Assembly: GCA_913060655.1 (NCBI GenBank)
Contig: CAJXTG010000016.1
Span: 1 to 33,105, forward strand
Reading direction: 5' to 3'
DNA length: 33,105 bases
Source of the DNA: an uncultured Nitriliruptoraceae bacterium
Lineage (GTDB): Bacteria > Actinomycetota > Nitriliruptoria > Nitriliruptorales > Nitriliruptoraceae
Below the pieces are notes generated by a model. That model had not been told where the DNA came from, made no database searches, and worked only from the letters and a program-made list of their open reading frames with translations. Below are positions 26,325 to 31,836 of the stretch, one piece after another. Numbering within the stretch: the stretch's first letter is position 1; every line of letters starts with the position of its first letter. Made by a program: the position numbers and the translations under genes.

Positions 26325-26501
26325 ATGGCCGTCCCGAAGCGCAAGCTGTCCCGTTCGCGGACGCGGCACCGTCGTGCCCAGTGGCTGCGCATCCGTCCGA
26401 CGACGACGGTCACGTGCGCGCGCTGCAAGGAGCCGACCCGTCCGCACACGGTCTGCGGCACGTGCGGCACCTACGACGGACGCGCCGTCATCGAGTCCTG
26501 A
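26325..26501 (+). CDS. rpmF: Ribosomal protein bL32, zinc-binding form
   Basis: This 58-residue basic protein of the large subunit starts MAVPKRKLSRSRTRHRRAQW, the standard L32 N terminus, and has two zinc-ribbon pairs C31-C34 and C44-C47 (CARC, CGTC). This is the zinc-containing form, not the cysteine-free one made under zinc limitation. The ATG at 26325 follows CGAGGAG; an in-frame ATG 36 bases upstream would add a non-family extension. Confidence 0.96.
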   Translation: MAVPKRKLSRSRTRHRRAQWLRIRPTTTVTCARCKEPTRPHTVCGTCGTYDGRAVIES

Positions 26502-26519
26502 CCGGCACGGCGGTGCCGG
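26502..26519 (+). terminator. Perfect hairpin directly after rpmF
   Basis: CCGGCAC (26502-26508) and GTGCCGG (26513-26519) form a 7-bp perfect stem with a GGCG tetraloop, starting on the base after the rpmF stop. No U-run follows, so attenuation, RNA stabilisation or an RNase III site are alternatives to termination. Confidence 0.5.
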
Positions 26520-26550
26520 CGTCCCTCCCCACCACAGGAGGCGTCGTCCC

Positions 26551-27249
26551 GTGACTGCTGCCGGGGGACTCACCGCCCGTCTCGGCGTCGATCACGTCGA
26601 CGAGGACCTGCTCCGCCGGGCCCTCACCCACCGCTCGTGGTCCTCGGAGCATGGCGGTGCCCCGCACAACGAGCGGCTCGAACTGCTCGGGGACGCCGTC
26701 CTCGACCTCGCCGTGACCGCCGCGCTGCATGCGCTCGACCCCGCCGCGGACGAGGGTGTGCTGTCGCGCCGCCGCTCGCTGCTCGTGCGCGAGGCGACGC
26801 TCGCCGCGGCCGCCCGTGACGTCGAGCTCGGCCGCGAGCTGCGGCTCGGTCGGGGCGAGGCCGCCTCCGGCGGGGCCGACAAGGACTCCCTGCTCGCCGA
26901 CGCCCTCGAGGCCGTCGTCGGGGCCGTCTTCCTCACCGCCGGCTACGAGGTCGCGGCGGAGCTGGTCATCCGCCTGCTGGACGCCCGCATCGTCGGGGAC
27001 GGCGCCGGCGGGCCGACCGACGCGACCGGTCCCGTCGACGCGAAGACGGCGCTGCAGGAGCGGCTGGCCGCGCGGCGCCTCCCCGGGCCGGAGTACCGCA
27101 CCAGCCGCGAGGGGCCCGACCACGCCCCGACCTTCCTCACCGACGTCCTGGTGGACGGGGAGGTCCTCGGATCGGGGTCGGGACGCTCCAAGAAGGCCGC
27201 CGCGCAGGCCGCCGCACAGCAGGCGCTGCTCGACGGACGCCTCGGGTAG
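26551..27249 (+). CDS. rnc: Ribonuclease III
   Basis: This 232-residue double-strand-specific endonuclease matures rRNA. The signature NERLELLGDAVLD (40-52) carries E41, E44 and D48; D117 and E120 in LLADALEAVVGAVFL complete the metal site. A double-stranded RNA-binding domain follows (about 160-230) with SGRSKKAAAQAAAQQAL. GTG at 26551 follows an AGGAGG ribosome site and begins right before the catalytic domain. Hairpins lie on both sides of the gene. Its TAG stop overlaps a promoter-like TAGCGT. Confidence 0.95.
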   Translation: MTAAGGLTARLGVDHVDEDLLRRALTHRSWSSEHGGAPHNERLELLGDAVLDLAVTAALHALDPAADEGVLSRRRSLLVREATLAAAARDVELGRELRLGRGEAASGGADKDSLLADALEAVVGAVFLTAGYEVAAELVIRLLDARIVGDGAGGPTDATGPVDAKTALQERLAARRLPGPEYRTSREGPDHAPTFLTDVLVDGEVLGSGSGRSKKAAAQAAAQQALLDGRLG

Positions 27250-27340: not shown

Positions 27341-28186
27341 GTGCTCGAACTGCCCGAGGCGGAGGTCCTTCGCCGGGACCTCGAGCGCGAGGTGGTCGGC
27401 AAGCGGGCGAAGGACGTGACGGTCACCACCCCCTCCGTGCTCAAGCCGTGGCACCGCACGCGCAAGGACTTCGCCGCACAGCTGGAGGGGCGGCGCATCG
27501 CGACGGTCCGCCGGCGCGGCAACGTCATGCTGCTCGAGCTCGACGAGGGGCTGACGTGGCTCGTCGACCCCGGCGCGCAGGGCTCGCTCCACCTGGAGAC
27601 GTCCACCGCGGATCCCGGTGCGGACACGCACGTCGCCGTCGCGTTCGCGACCGGCGGGGCCCTCCACCTCAGCGAGGCCGGCCGGGAACCGACGCTGCGC
27701 TGCGGGGTCGTCCCGTCCGAGGAGGCGGACGACGCGGCCGGCGTCTCCCGAGACGCCCTCGACCTGCTCGCCGACACGCCGACGTGGATCGAGTTCGGCC
27801 GCTACCTCCTCGCCGGTGACGAGCAGCTCAAGCTGCTCCTCGCCGACCCGAAGCGGTTCCTCGGCCTCGGCCCGGTGTACAGCGACGAGATCCTGTGGGA
27901 GGCGGGACTCCGCCACGACCGCCTGTCGTCGTCGCTGTCACCCCAGGAGATCCGCCGGCTGTACCGCGCCGCGCACGAGGTGCTGCTCGCCGGCATGAAG
28001 GCGTCGGGGTCGGCGCTCGACGATGCGGAGCCGGACACCTACACCGAGGACGACGGCAGCGTCGCGGGCCACCTCAACGTGTTCGGCCGCGAGGGGCAGC
28101 CGTGCCCGCGGTGCCGGACGCCCATCGAGCGCACGCGGCTGCGGCGCGGCCTGACGAGCTTCCACTGCCCCCGCTGCATGGGCTGA
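27341..28186 (+). CDS. MutM/Fpg-family protein lacking key catalytic residues
   Basis: This 281-residue protein has the length and layout of formamidopyrimidine-DNA glycosylase: N-terminal beta-sandwich, helix-two-turn-helix region (about 165-220, GLGPVYSDEILWEAGL) and a C-terminal zinc finger with C255, C258, C276, C279. The usual start MPELPE reads MLELPE, so the catalytic N-terminal proline is leucine. By eye the other key positions also differ: N61 for the conserved lysine in RRGK, P178 for the DNA-contacting asparagine in GxGN, and L271 for the zinc-finger arginine. E3 is kept. GTG at 27341 follows CGAGGAGCG; the longer open frame is inside rnc. It probably binds DNA but may not be a glycosylase. 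smc starts two bases after its stop. Confidence 0.85.
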   Translation: MLELPEAEVLRRDLEREVVGKRAKDVTVTTPSVLKPWHRTRKDFAAQLEGRRIATVRRRGNVMLLELDEGLTWLVDPGAQGSLHLETSTADPGADTHVAVAFATGGALHLSEAGREPTLRCGVVPSEEADDAAGVSRDALDLLADTPTWIEFGRYLLAGDEQLKLLLADPKRFLGLGPVYSDEILWEAGLRHDRLSSSLSPQEIRRLYRAAHEVLLAGMKASGSALDDAEPDTYTEDDGSVAGHLNVFGREGQPCPRCRTPIERTRLRRGLTSFHCPRCMG

Positions 28187-28188
28187 CG

Positions 28189-31100
28189 ATGTTCCTCACG
28201 TCCCTCACCATGCGCGGCTTCAAGTCCTTCGCCGACGCCACGACGCTCGAGGTCGAGCCCGGCATCACCGTCGTCGTCGGCCCCAACGGGTCGGGCAAGT
28301 CCAACATCGTCGACGCGCTGTCGTGGGTCCTCGGCACCCACTCGGTGCGCAAGGTGCGCGGCTCGGCCATGACCGACGTGATCTTCGCCGGTGCGCCGGG
28401 GCGGGCCCGTGCCCGACGCGCCCGCGTGGAGATCGTCATCGACAACGCGGACGGACGCCTCGAGCCGTCCGGGGTGGGGACGGCCGGGTCGGCCGGCCGC
28501 TTCCGGGAGGTCCGCGTCGCCCGCACCATCGAGGAGGACGGGCTCGGCGTCTACGAGATCAACGGGGAGGAGGTCCGGGCCCTCGACGTGCAGGAGCTGC
28601 TGAGCGACACCGGGCTCGGCCGCGAGCTGCACACCATCGTCGGGCAGGGGCAGCTCGACGAGATCCTCAACGCCCGGCCGGAGGAGCGCCGCCGCTACAT
28701 CGAGGAGGCCGCCGGCATCCTCAAGCATCGCCGCCGCCGTGAGCGTGCGGTGAAGAAGCTCGAGACGGTCGACGAGCACGTCGACAAGCTGCGCACCGTC
28801 CTGCGCGAGCTGCGTCGGCAGCTGCGTCCGCTCGAGCAGCAGGCGAAGGCGGCGGACAAGCATGCGGCGCTGCAGGCCCAGCTGCGGGAGGTCCGTGTCC
28901 AGCGGGTCGCGCGCGAGGTCGCGCTGCTCGACCGCGCCGCCCTCGACGCCGGACGGGACGAGGCCGACGCGCGGGACCGTGAGCTGCTGCTCGAGCAGGC
29001 GCTCGACGGCGCCCGTGAGGACGAGCGGACCCTGGGCCGCCGGCTGGAGGACGCGTCGCGTGAGGGCGGCGCGGGCGACGAACGGTTCCACGCCCTGTCA
29101 CGCCTGTCGGAGCGGCTCCGCGGCACCGGCGACCTGATCGCCGCGACGCGCCGACGGCTGGCCGACGCCGTCGAGGAGCCCGTCCTCGACCGTTCCGGGG
29201 ACACGCTGCGGGCCGAGGCCGCGCAGCTCGAGGAGGGGCGTCCGGCGCTCGAGGAGGCGGTCACCGCCGCCGAGGCGGCCGACGCGGCCGCCCGCACCGC
29301 CCTGCGCACCGCGGAGCGCGAACGTGAGGCGCACGCCGACGCGCGTGCGGCCGACGAGCGTGCCCGGGCCGTCGCCCGCGAGCGGCGCTCCCGGCGACGC
29401 GCCGACATCGCCGCGCTCGAGCGGCGCATCGACGACCGGGAGGCGGAGCGCGCCCGGACGGCGGCACGCCTCACCGAGGTGGAGCAGCGGGAGGCCGCCC
29501 TCAGCGACGACGTCGCCCGCCTCCGTGACGACATCCACCGGCTGGACGCCGGCGAGGCGGAGCTGACCGAACGGCTCGACGTCGCCGAGGCGAAGCTGCG
29601 CTCCACCGAGGTCCGGCTCGACGAGGTGCACGAGGAGGCGCGGACCGCCGGGTCGGAGCGCGCCGCCCAGCTCGCGCGGGCCGAGGCGCTGCGCGCCACG
29701 GCGGCGGACGCCGCGCGCACCGCGGACGCGCTCGTCGACGCGGGACTCACCGGCGTGCACGCGGCCGTCGTCGACCTGCTCGAGGTCGACGAGGACGACC
29801 GGGTCGCCGTGGCGACCGCGCTCGGACCGCTCGGTCCGGCCGTCGCCGTCGACGGTGACGCCGGCCTCGGACGTGCCGTCGACTGGCTGCGCGACGCGGA
29901 GGGCGGCGCGACCCTGCTCGTGGCGGACGGCGGGCGTGACGCCGACGCCCTCGACGCGGACGCCCGCGCGCTCCTCGCCGAGGTCGGCGCGCGCACCGTC
30001 GGGGACGCGGTCCGTGCCGCCGGCGGCGGCGAGGTCGCCGGGCGGGTCGTCCGCGCCGTCGCCAGCGCCCTCGCGACGACCGTCATCGTCGACGGCTGGG
30101 ACACGGCCGTGCGGCTGCACGCCCGGCTGCCGCACGTCACCGTCGTCACCCGCGCGGGCGACGTCGCCGGGCCGCTCGGCTACCGGATCGGGACGGTCGG
30201 GACGGGCGGCCCCGCCCTGGCCCGGGCAGCGGCCGAGCAGGCCGAGGAGGCGGTCGTCGCGCTCGAGGAGCGGCTGGCGGCGCTCGATGCGCGCGCCGAG
30301 GAGCTGCGCGCCGAGGTGGCGGCCCGGACCGCGGAGCGGGACGCCGCGCAGGCGGCGCTGCAGGACTCCGACGCCCGGCTGACCGGCGCCGCCGAGCGGC
30401 TCGAGCGGCTGGAGGAGGAGCGGCGGCTCCTCGCGGAGCAGCGGGCGGGTCTCGCCACCCAGCGGGACGAGAGCGTCGAGGTCCTCGAGGAGGACCGGCG
30501 GACGCTCGCCGCGCTCACCGCGGAGGAGGCGGAGGACCCCGACGACGACGCGCAGCCCGAGCCCGACGGGGACGCGCGGGCCGCCGAGCTCGACGCGGCC
30601 CTCGACGCGGCCCGCGAGGCCGCCTTCGAGGCCCGCATCGCCCTGCAGCGGGCGGAGGACGCCCGGGACCGCGCCGCCGCCGAGGTCGTGCGCCTGCAGG
30701 GCGAGGCCGACGCCATCGACGCCGCGCACGCACGTGCCCTGGCCCGCCGGGAGGCACGACGGGAGGGCGTGGTGCGGTGCGACGCGCTCGAGCGGGTGGC
30801 GGCGCAGGCCCGCACCGTCCTCGAACGTGCGCTGGTGGAGGCCGACGAGGCCCGGGCCTCCCGCCTCGCCGAGCGTGACCGGCTGCGGGACGAGCTCGAC
30901 GCCGCCCGTGAGGCGACCGTCGAGGCGTCGCGCCGGCTGGAGCAGCACCGGGAGGACCGTCACCGCAGCGAGCTCGCCCGTGCCGACGTCGACGCCCGGC
31001 TGGGTGCGCTCGCGGCGCGGGTGCGGACCGAGCTCGCCCTCGACCTCGACGAGGTCCGCAGCGAACAGCCGGACGCGGCCGAGCTCGACGACGCGCGGCT

Positions 31101-31836
31101 GGTGGAACGTGAGGACGTGCTGGTGCGCCGCATCGGCCTGCTCGGACGCGTCAACCCGCTCGCGCTCGAGGAGTTCGAGGCGCTCGAGGAGCGGCACCGG
31201 TTCCTGTCCGACCAGCTCGACGACCTGCGCCGTTCCCGCAAGGACCTCGAGGAGGTCATCGCGGCGGTCGACGAGCGCATCCGCGTCGTGTTCAAGGAGG
31301 CGTTCGACGACGTCGCCGAGGAGTTCCAGGCGACGTTCGAGACGATGTTCCCGGGTGGGAAGGGCCGGCTCGTCCTCACCGGGGCCGACGACCTGCTCAC
31401 CGCCGGCGTCGAGGTCGAGGCACGGCCGCCCGGCAAGCGGGTGCAGCGGCTGTCGCTGCTCAGCGGCGGTGAGCGGTCCCTGACCGTCCTCGCGTTCGTG
31501 TTCGCGATCTTCCGTGCCCGGCCGTCGCCGTTCTACGTGCTCGACGAGGTCGACGCGGCCCTCGACGACGTGAACCTGCAGCGGCTGCTGAAGGTCGTGC
31601 GCTCGTTCCGCGGCCACGCGCAGGTGATCATGGTCACCCACCAGAAGCGGTCGATGGAGATCGCCGACCTCCTCTACGGCATCACGATGGGACCGGACGC
31701 CATCACGAAGGTGGTCTCCGAACGGCTGCGCGATCGCCGTGCCGTCGCTGCGCTCGACGACCGCGCCTCGCAGGCACCGACGGAGGCGCTCGCCGACGAG
31801 CAGGACGCCGCCTCGGCGTCCGCCCGGTCCGCCTGA
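28189..31836 (+). CDS. smc: Chromosome segregation protein SMC
   Basis: This 1215-residue condensin ATPase has Walker A GPNGSGKSN (31-39) in the N-terminal head, two very long coiled coils, a hinge (about 519-670), and a C-terminal head with signature LSGGE (1091-1095) and Walker B FYVLDEVDAALDD (D1119, E1120). It forms the ring that compacts and separates chromosomes with ScpA and ScpB, whose genes are not in the window. The ATG two bases after the mutM-like stop starts the family N terminus MFLTSLTMRGFKSFAD. Confidence 0.97.
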   Translation: MFLTSLTMRGFKSFADATTLEVEPGITVVVGPNGSGKSNIVDALSWVLGTHSVRKVRGSAMTDVIFAGAPGRARARRARVEIVIDNADGRLEPSGVGTAGSAGRFREVRVARTIEEDGLGVYEINGEEVRALDVQELLSDTGLGRELHTIVGQGQLDEILNARPEERRRYIEEAAGILKHRRRRERAVKKLETVDEHVDKLRTVLRELRRQLRPLEQQAKAADKHAALQAQLREVRVQRVAREVALLDRAALDAGRDEADARDRELLLEQALDGAREDERTLGRRLEDASREGGAGDERFHALSRLSERLRGTGDLIAATRRRLADAVEEPVLDRSGDTLRAEAAQLEEGRPALEEAVTAAEAADAAARTALRTAEREREAHADARAADERARAVARERRSRRRADIAALERRIDDREAERARTAARLTEVEQREAALSDDVARLRDDIHRLDAGEAELTERLDVAEAKLRSTEVRLDEVHEEARTAGSERAAQLARAEALRATAADAARTADALVDAGLTGVHAAVVDLLEVDEDDRVAVATALGPLGPAVAVDGDAGLGRAVDWLRDAEGGATLLVADGGRDADALDADARALLAEVGARTVGDAVRAAGGGEVAGRVVRAVASALATTVIVDGWDTAVRLHARLPHVTVVTRAGDVAGPLGYRIGTVGTGGPALARAAAEQAEEAVVALEERLAALDARAEELRAEVAARTAERDAAQAALQDSDARLTGAAERLERLEEERRLLAEQRAGLATQRDESVEVLEEDRRTLAALTAEEAEDPDDDAQPEPDGDARAAELDAALDAAREAAFEARIALQRAEDARDRAAAEVVRLQGEADAIDAAHARALARREARREGVVRCDALERVAAQARTVLERALVEADEARASRLAERDRLRDELDAAREATVEASRRLEQHREDRHRSELARADVDARLGALAARVRTELALDLDEVRSEQPDAAELDDARLVEREDVLVRRIGLLGRVNPLALEEFEALEERHRFLSDQLDDLRRSRKDLEEVIAAVDERIRVVFKEAFDDVAEEFQATFETMFPGGKGRLVLTGADDLLTAGVEVEARPPGKRVQRLSLLSGGERSLTVLAFVFAIFRARPSPFYVLDEVDAALDDVNLQRLLKVVRSFRGHAQVIMVTHQKRSMEIADLLYGITMGPDAITKVVSERLRDRRAVAALDDRASQAPTEALADEQDAASASARSA

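Follow-up and report, generated by a model that had tools for sequence, protein, structure and literature searches.

A MutM-family protein without most of the catalytic residues is retained at the rnc-smc locus of Nitriliruptoria

Introduction

MutM (Fpg) is a textbook repair enzyme that is assumed to work only by excising oxidised bases, and in actinobacteria its gene usually follows rnc. P2 and E3 form the catalytic pair, and K60, N174 and R264 are phosphate-binding residues conserved across the family (PMC3188539); M77, R112 and F114 are sites mutated in MutM structures. The Fpg-family paralogue Fpg2 of M. tuberculosis (Rv0944) lacks the N-terminal catalytic residues (PMC2734929); it is truncated, with full-length orthologues in other mycobacteria. 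Nei2 of M. smegmatis has a role in psoralen repair in vivo that does not need its AP lyase activity (PMC11323726), and the NFACT-N domain of RqcH/Rqc2 is related to Fpg but serves a purpose other than DNA repair (PMC6514570).

Here, we describe a MutM-family gene in a 33,105-nucleotide stretch of DNA from an uncultured Nitriliruptoraceae bacterium, the whole of which is referred to as the window. Its product resembles Fpg/MutM (BaFpg1-type; 1r2y, E. coli Fpg) in full-length homology, domain order and predicted fold, and the gene likewise lies after rnc. Unlike Fpg/MutM, it is acidic, scores under the curated fpg cutoffs, and lacks P2, K60, H74, M77, R112, F114, Q166, N174 and R264. In contrast to Rv0944, it keeps the whole N-domain, and its residues are substituted throughout the class and at the ancestral locus. 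Nei2 offers a precedent for a non-lyase role, but its active site is kept and it is catalytically active. NFACT-N sits in a larger ribosome rescue protein, whereas the window protein has only weak similarity to it in the helix-two-turn-helix (H2TH) region. A description of this subfamily was not found in the open PMC literature, which was the scope of the search.

Results

Gene structure and predicted fold

The gene occupies positions 27341..28186 (+) of the window, an open frame that starts with GTG and encodes a non-catalytic MutM/Fpg-family protein of 281 aa beginning Met(GTG)-Leu-Glu-Leu-Pro-Glu. The gene order is recG .. rsmD-coaD .. rnc-[mutM]-smc-ftsY. Upstream lies rnc, encoding RNase III (26374..27249, +; this is the longest ORF, and the true start is probably internal), and the ATG of smc (28189..31836, +) follows the stop codon of the mutM-family gene after 2 bp. 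The intact frame and its distance from smc thus agree with the initial annotation of this DNA, which had been made from the letters alone.

Over its full length, the protein aligns with structurally characterised MutM, and it contains the Pfam domains Fapy_DNA_glyco and H2TH. It falls below both NCBIfam fpg cutoffs, scoring 144 bits against TIGR00577 (cutoff 203) and 151 bits against NF002211 (cutoff 212). An AlphaFold2 model (pLDDT 91.3) found MutM 1r2y as its best PDB match, with a TM score of 0.84. All four cysteines of the zinc finger are present (C255, C258, C276 and C279; the second pair at 28166..28177, +). Its Fapy_DNA_glyco N-domain, H2TH and predicted MutM fold place the window protein in the Fpg/Nei superfamily, both structurally and by ancestry, but it does not have the catalytic features that define MutM.

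Several orthologues (L013, L016, L019 and L025) have a stop codon 3-6 codons 5' of the same GTG. The GTG start is therefore secure, and no upstream start would give a proline at position 2; a misplaced start masking this proline, which had been named as grounds for rejecting the original reading, is ruled out. An assembly error or a local pseudogene is ruled out as well, since the same pattern is found throughout the class. The residue pattern being common to the whole class, it is not due to chance or sequencing error.

Active-site residues

The protein was aligned with the MutM sequences of B. stearothermophilus and E. coli, both entered by hand; family residues are numbered as in B. stearothermophilus MutM, and all coordinates below are on the + strand. 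The nucleophile Pro2 is replaced by L2 (27344..27346), and removal of Met1 ahead of this leucine is not expected from the sequence. E3 is kept (27347..27349). All three phosphate-clamp residues are exchanged: Lys60 for N61 (27521..27523), Asn174 in the H2TH for P178 (27872..27874) and Arg264 in the zinc-finger hairpin for L271 (28151..28153). The void-filling triad is missing too: Met77 has become A79 (27575..27577), and in the intercalation loop Arg112 and Phe114 have become G114 and E116 (27680..27688). D76 replaces His74, which column conservation shows to be invariant in active MutM (27566..27568), and P170 replaces Gln166 (27848..27850). In summary, the substitutions are P2L, K60N, H74D, M77A, R112G, F114E, Q166P, N174P and R264L, and every first-shell residue except E3 is gone.

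Frame translation and alignment confirmed the MLELPE start with leucine for the catalytic proline that had been noted initially, as well as the exchanges at N61, P178 and L271 and the persistence of E3, the H2TH and the four zinc cysteines. That list was right in what it named but incomplete, as D76, A79, G114, E116 and P170 had been missed.

At least 95% conservation in active MutM was found for 45 columns; 35 of these are kept, and ten (K60, H74, M77, R112, F114, Q166, N174, I175, D224 and R264) are lost, that is, kept by <40% of the non-catalytic rows. Judged from the alignment, and with a site list partly drawn up post hoc, the losses are concentrated in DNA-reading residues. Position 2 is Leu in the window's family and Thr, Ser or Met in the rest of the class, where E3 is not conserved either and mostly gives way to Gln, Tyr, His or Leu. 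One genome of the same genus (G003) has P2 but lacks K60, M77, R112, F114, N174 and R264, a combination that fits a position 2 released from constraint.

Distribution and phylogeny

Relatives were sought in 61 genomes. An orthologue was found in 59 of them; in the other two, the best match was a canonical MutM. All 33 near-complete genomes of the class Nitriliruptoria (at least 90% complete, at most 5% contaminated) carry the orthologue, in a single copy at E <= 1e-40. The named records among the closest loci belong to Nitriliruptoraceae, Nitriliruptorales and Euzebyales, and the NCBI taxonomy places Nitriliruptoraceae within the class Nitriliruptoria. Three more lineages of the phylum show this loss, whether or not P2 is present: the families f6 and f17 and an acidimicrobial group with Candidatus Microthrix parvicella among its members. 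Plasmid-borne relatives reached 31% identity at best among the matches listed.

The orthologues share the locus rnc-[mutM]-smc, and rnc adjoins the gene in nearly all relatives, active or not. Only compact genomes have the tight link to smc, and the 2-bp gap is limited to the window's genus (1 bp in G036). Since most relatives have other genes between the mutM-family gene and smc, the tight spacing looks like genome compaction, which weakens the SMC partnership that had been deduced from it. By eye, the intervening genes include an acylphosphatase-like gene (L076) and a hydrolase-like ORF on the opposite strand (L096, L102).

A tree was built with the trait columns left out. The non-catalytic lineages (Nitriliruptoria, support 99/99; f6, 100/98; f17, 100/100; Acidimicrobiia, 58/97) nest in a clade that contains active MutMs of the locus, and the loss is inherited across the class Nitriliruptoria, as the initial annotation had proposed to check. 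The best tree has at least two changes of state, yet one clade of all non-catalytic copies was not rejected (AU p = 0.108). The number of origins of the non-catalytic state may be small.

Another clade of MutMs at the rnc-smc locus lacks proline 2 in a different way: the start codon stands in its place, giving Met1-Glu2-Leu3-Pro4, and the other active-site residues are intact (L139, L142, L148, L100, L104, L106, L115, L136 and L144; L167, L168, L170-L174, L177 and L179-L181). In L139, L142 and L148, a stop codon lies directly upstream. No further Fpg above the cutoff turned up in the genomes of this clade that were checked, so the nucleophile may be the amine of an uncleaved Met1.

A second, intact MutM

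Genomes were searched for further copies, and a separate MutM was counted when it scored over the curated fpg cutoff. The window's genome proved to encode the second, canonical mutM that had been suggested as a check; it lies at G000:C4:5810-6643, scores 249 bits (fpg cutoff, 203) and has all residues intact. A third, more distant Fpg/Nei-like match is found in the same genome at G000:C7:731-1444 (89 bits).

Of the 32 genomes with a non-catalytic locus copy, 29 had a separate MutM, and of the 17 with an intact locus copy none did (Fisher p = 1.8e-10, a statistic that ignores shared ancestry). The second MutMs from genomes with a non-catalytic copy form a clade of their own (100/100). In two of the three exceptions, the second copy is in pieces that fall below the cutoff (G135:C6:38575-39319 and G165:C3:132576-133171; frameshift, assembly error or decay). 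The third, G036 (L052; 2.1 Mb, 96% complete), has the non-catalytic copy as its only Fpg match and apparently no canonical MutM.

At three f17 loci (L241, L242 and L243), a second Fpg/Nei-family gene adjoins the non-catalytic copy. Its product starts PELPELDVLAENL and has P2, E3, K60, N174 and R264.

Selection, charge and the retained C-lobe surface

For close pairs of the non-catalytic copy, dN/dS (NG86) was roughly 0.08-0.25, compared with 0.20 for the canonical copy; the gene thus evolves under purifying selection. Entropy in the intercalation loop rose from 0.36 to 2.18, with a similar rise in the other DNA-reading segments. The N-terminal helix 11-30, the strand at ~101-110, segment 141-150 and the H2TH helix 201-210 are as constrained as in active copies, or more so.

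The window protein has a pI of 5.6 and a net charge of -8, whereas the canonical MutM of the same genome has a pI of 10.9 and a charge of +14; the median pI is 5.3 for the non-catalytic copies of Nitriliruptoria versus 9.4 for the second MutMs. In Nitriliruptoria, Asp and Glu account for 35% of the residues at eight sites that formerly read DNA, against a background of 16%, and a weaker trend is seen in the other non-catalytic lineages. By its predicted charge, the former DNA cleft has turned acidic.

A basic surface remains in the C-lobe. It comprises the long H2TH helix with Q202, R205, R206, R209 and K220 (27944..28000, +), which we propose as a retained functional surface, and the zinc knuckle C255-P-R257-C258-R259 (28103..28117, +). 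W149 (27785..27787, +) is clade-specific and, like R205, R206, R209, R257 and R259, present in 46/46 non-catalytic rows; all six also occur in the active locus clade. The five invariant arginines use 4-6 synonymous codons each. Outside the locus clade, few or no MutMs have W149, R205, R209 or R259, while R206 is more widespread (48%) and R257 general (90%).

The zinc cysteines are lost in 10 of the 46 non-catalytic rows, where R257 and R259 stay invariant. These losses fall in the sublineages L034, L049, L051 and L052, and L099, L124, L128, L131, L134 and L147. The model of an acidimicrobial relative that lacks the zinc site has a pLDDT of 92.4. The conservation pattern suggests that these C-lobe residues serve a function that predates the loss of catalysis; alternatively, the arginines could form a structural salt-bridge network particular to the clade.

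Discussion

We consider it probable that the window gene derives, as its position indicates, from the mutM of the ancestral actinobacterial rnc-mutM-smc locus and has become a pseudoenzyme, which may be kept for an older, non-catalytic job. The locus protein no longer has the residues that evert the base, clamp the phosphates and form the Schiff base. Such a copy would neither excise 8-oxoG nor cleave AP sites, nor would it bind lesion DNA in the former cleft, and the repair work would fall to the other, intact MutM. With less certainty, the locus protein may already have had its second job before catalysis was lost, carried by the basic C-lobe surface (R205, R206, R209, K220, R257, R259 and W149). 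Putative binding of a protein or RNA partner would then be the reason the gene is still kept. We hold this partner-binding role, deduced from residue conservation, with moderate confidence. The presence of E3 in the window's family counts against a pseudoenzyme.

The adjoining rnc gene and the Fpg-related NFACT-N domain (PMC6514570) raise the question of whether the protein is linked to RNA or the ribosome. Its invariant arginines would fit such a factor, and weak NFACT_N matches occur in 45/54 and 17/21 non-catalytic copies. However, these matches stay below the Pfam cutoff, cover the H2TH region only in the rows inspected, and are also seen in 26/47 active MutMs; active MutM has rnc as a neighbour too, in an ancestral arrangement. 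We therefore regard this explanation as unlikely. Membership in NFACT/RqcH itself, which requires a larger multidomain protein, is rejected: the match of the window protein spans 45 residues and reaches 15 bits, against a cutoff of 31.

The initial annotation had offered a protein that binds DNA without cleaving it, as a lesion sensor or an architectural factor working with SMC. Its non-catalytic part is strongly supported by the loss of the first-shell residues other than E3, the class-wide pattern and the second canonical mutM. The DNA-binding part is not supported. The window protein does keep the H2TH and the zinc finger, and smc is only 2 bp away, but the intercalating residues and those of the phosphate clamp have been exchanged, in many cases for acidic ones (K60, H74, R112, N174 and R264 are lost, and the former cleft is enriched in acidic residues). 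The low pI, the relatives without zinc cysteines and the genes that intervene before smc in most relatives speak against it as well, and we think a role of this kind quite improbable.

In a rewired glycosylase, the N-terminal amine of Met1, Thr or Ser would stand in for that of proline, and the phosphate clamp would be built differently. Methionine aminopeptidase would expose a Thr or Ser at position 2, and the window's family keeps E3. Moreover, NEIL3 has valine instead of the proline (PMC11323726). Against this, K60, N174, R264 and the triad have given way to many different residues rather than to one new set, and position 2 varies between L, T, S, M and P. The AP lyase activity of Nei2 requires Lys51 and Pro2, and its glycosylase activity requires Lys51 and Glu3 (PMC11323726). 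We think this reading very improbable. Slow decay of a functionless gene is barely credible: the ancestral activity is lost and part of the sequence evolves fast, but the frame is open in 33/33 genomes, dN/dS is far under 1, clade-specific residues are invariant, and the gene is kept in genomes of 1.7-2.1 Mb.

If the locus protein is indeed a pseudoenzyme retained for an older job, the gene at the rnc-smc locus would be misannotated as 'fpg' in at least four actinobacterial lineages, whose working MutM lies elsewhere. Tentatively, we can go one step further: the active MutMs of the locus clade might have a second function independent of base excision and carried by the conserved basic C-lobe surface, with catalysis dropped wherever a dedicated MutM took over and a pseudoenzyme left behind. 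If this is true, active MutMs at the rnc-smc locus still do both jobs. A copy free of catalysis in an entire class would separate the enzyme's job from the other role of the protein and provide a clean genetic handle on it.
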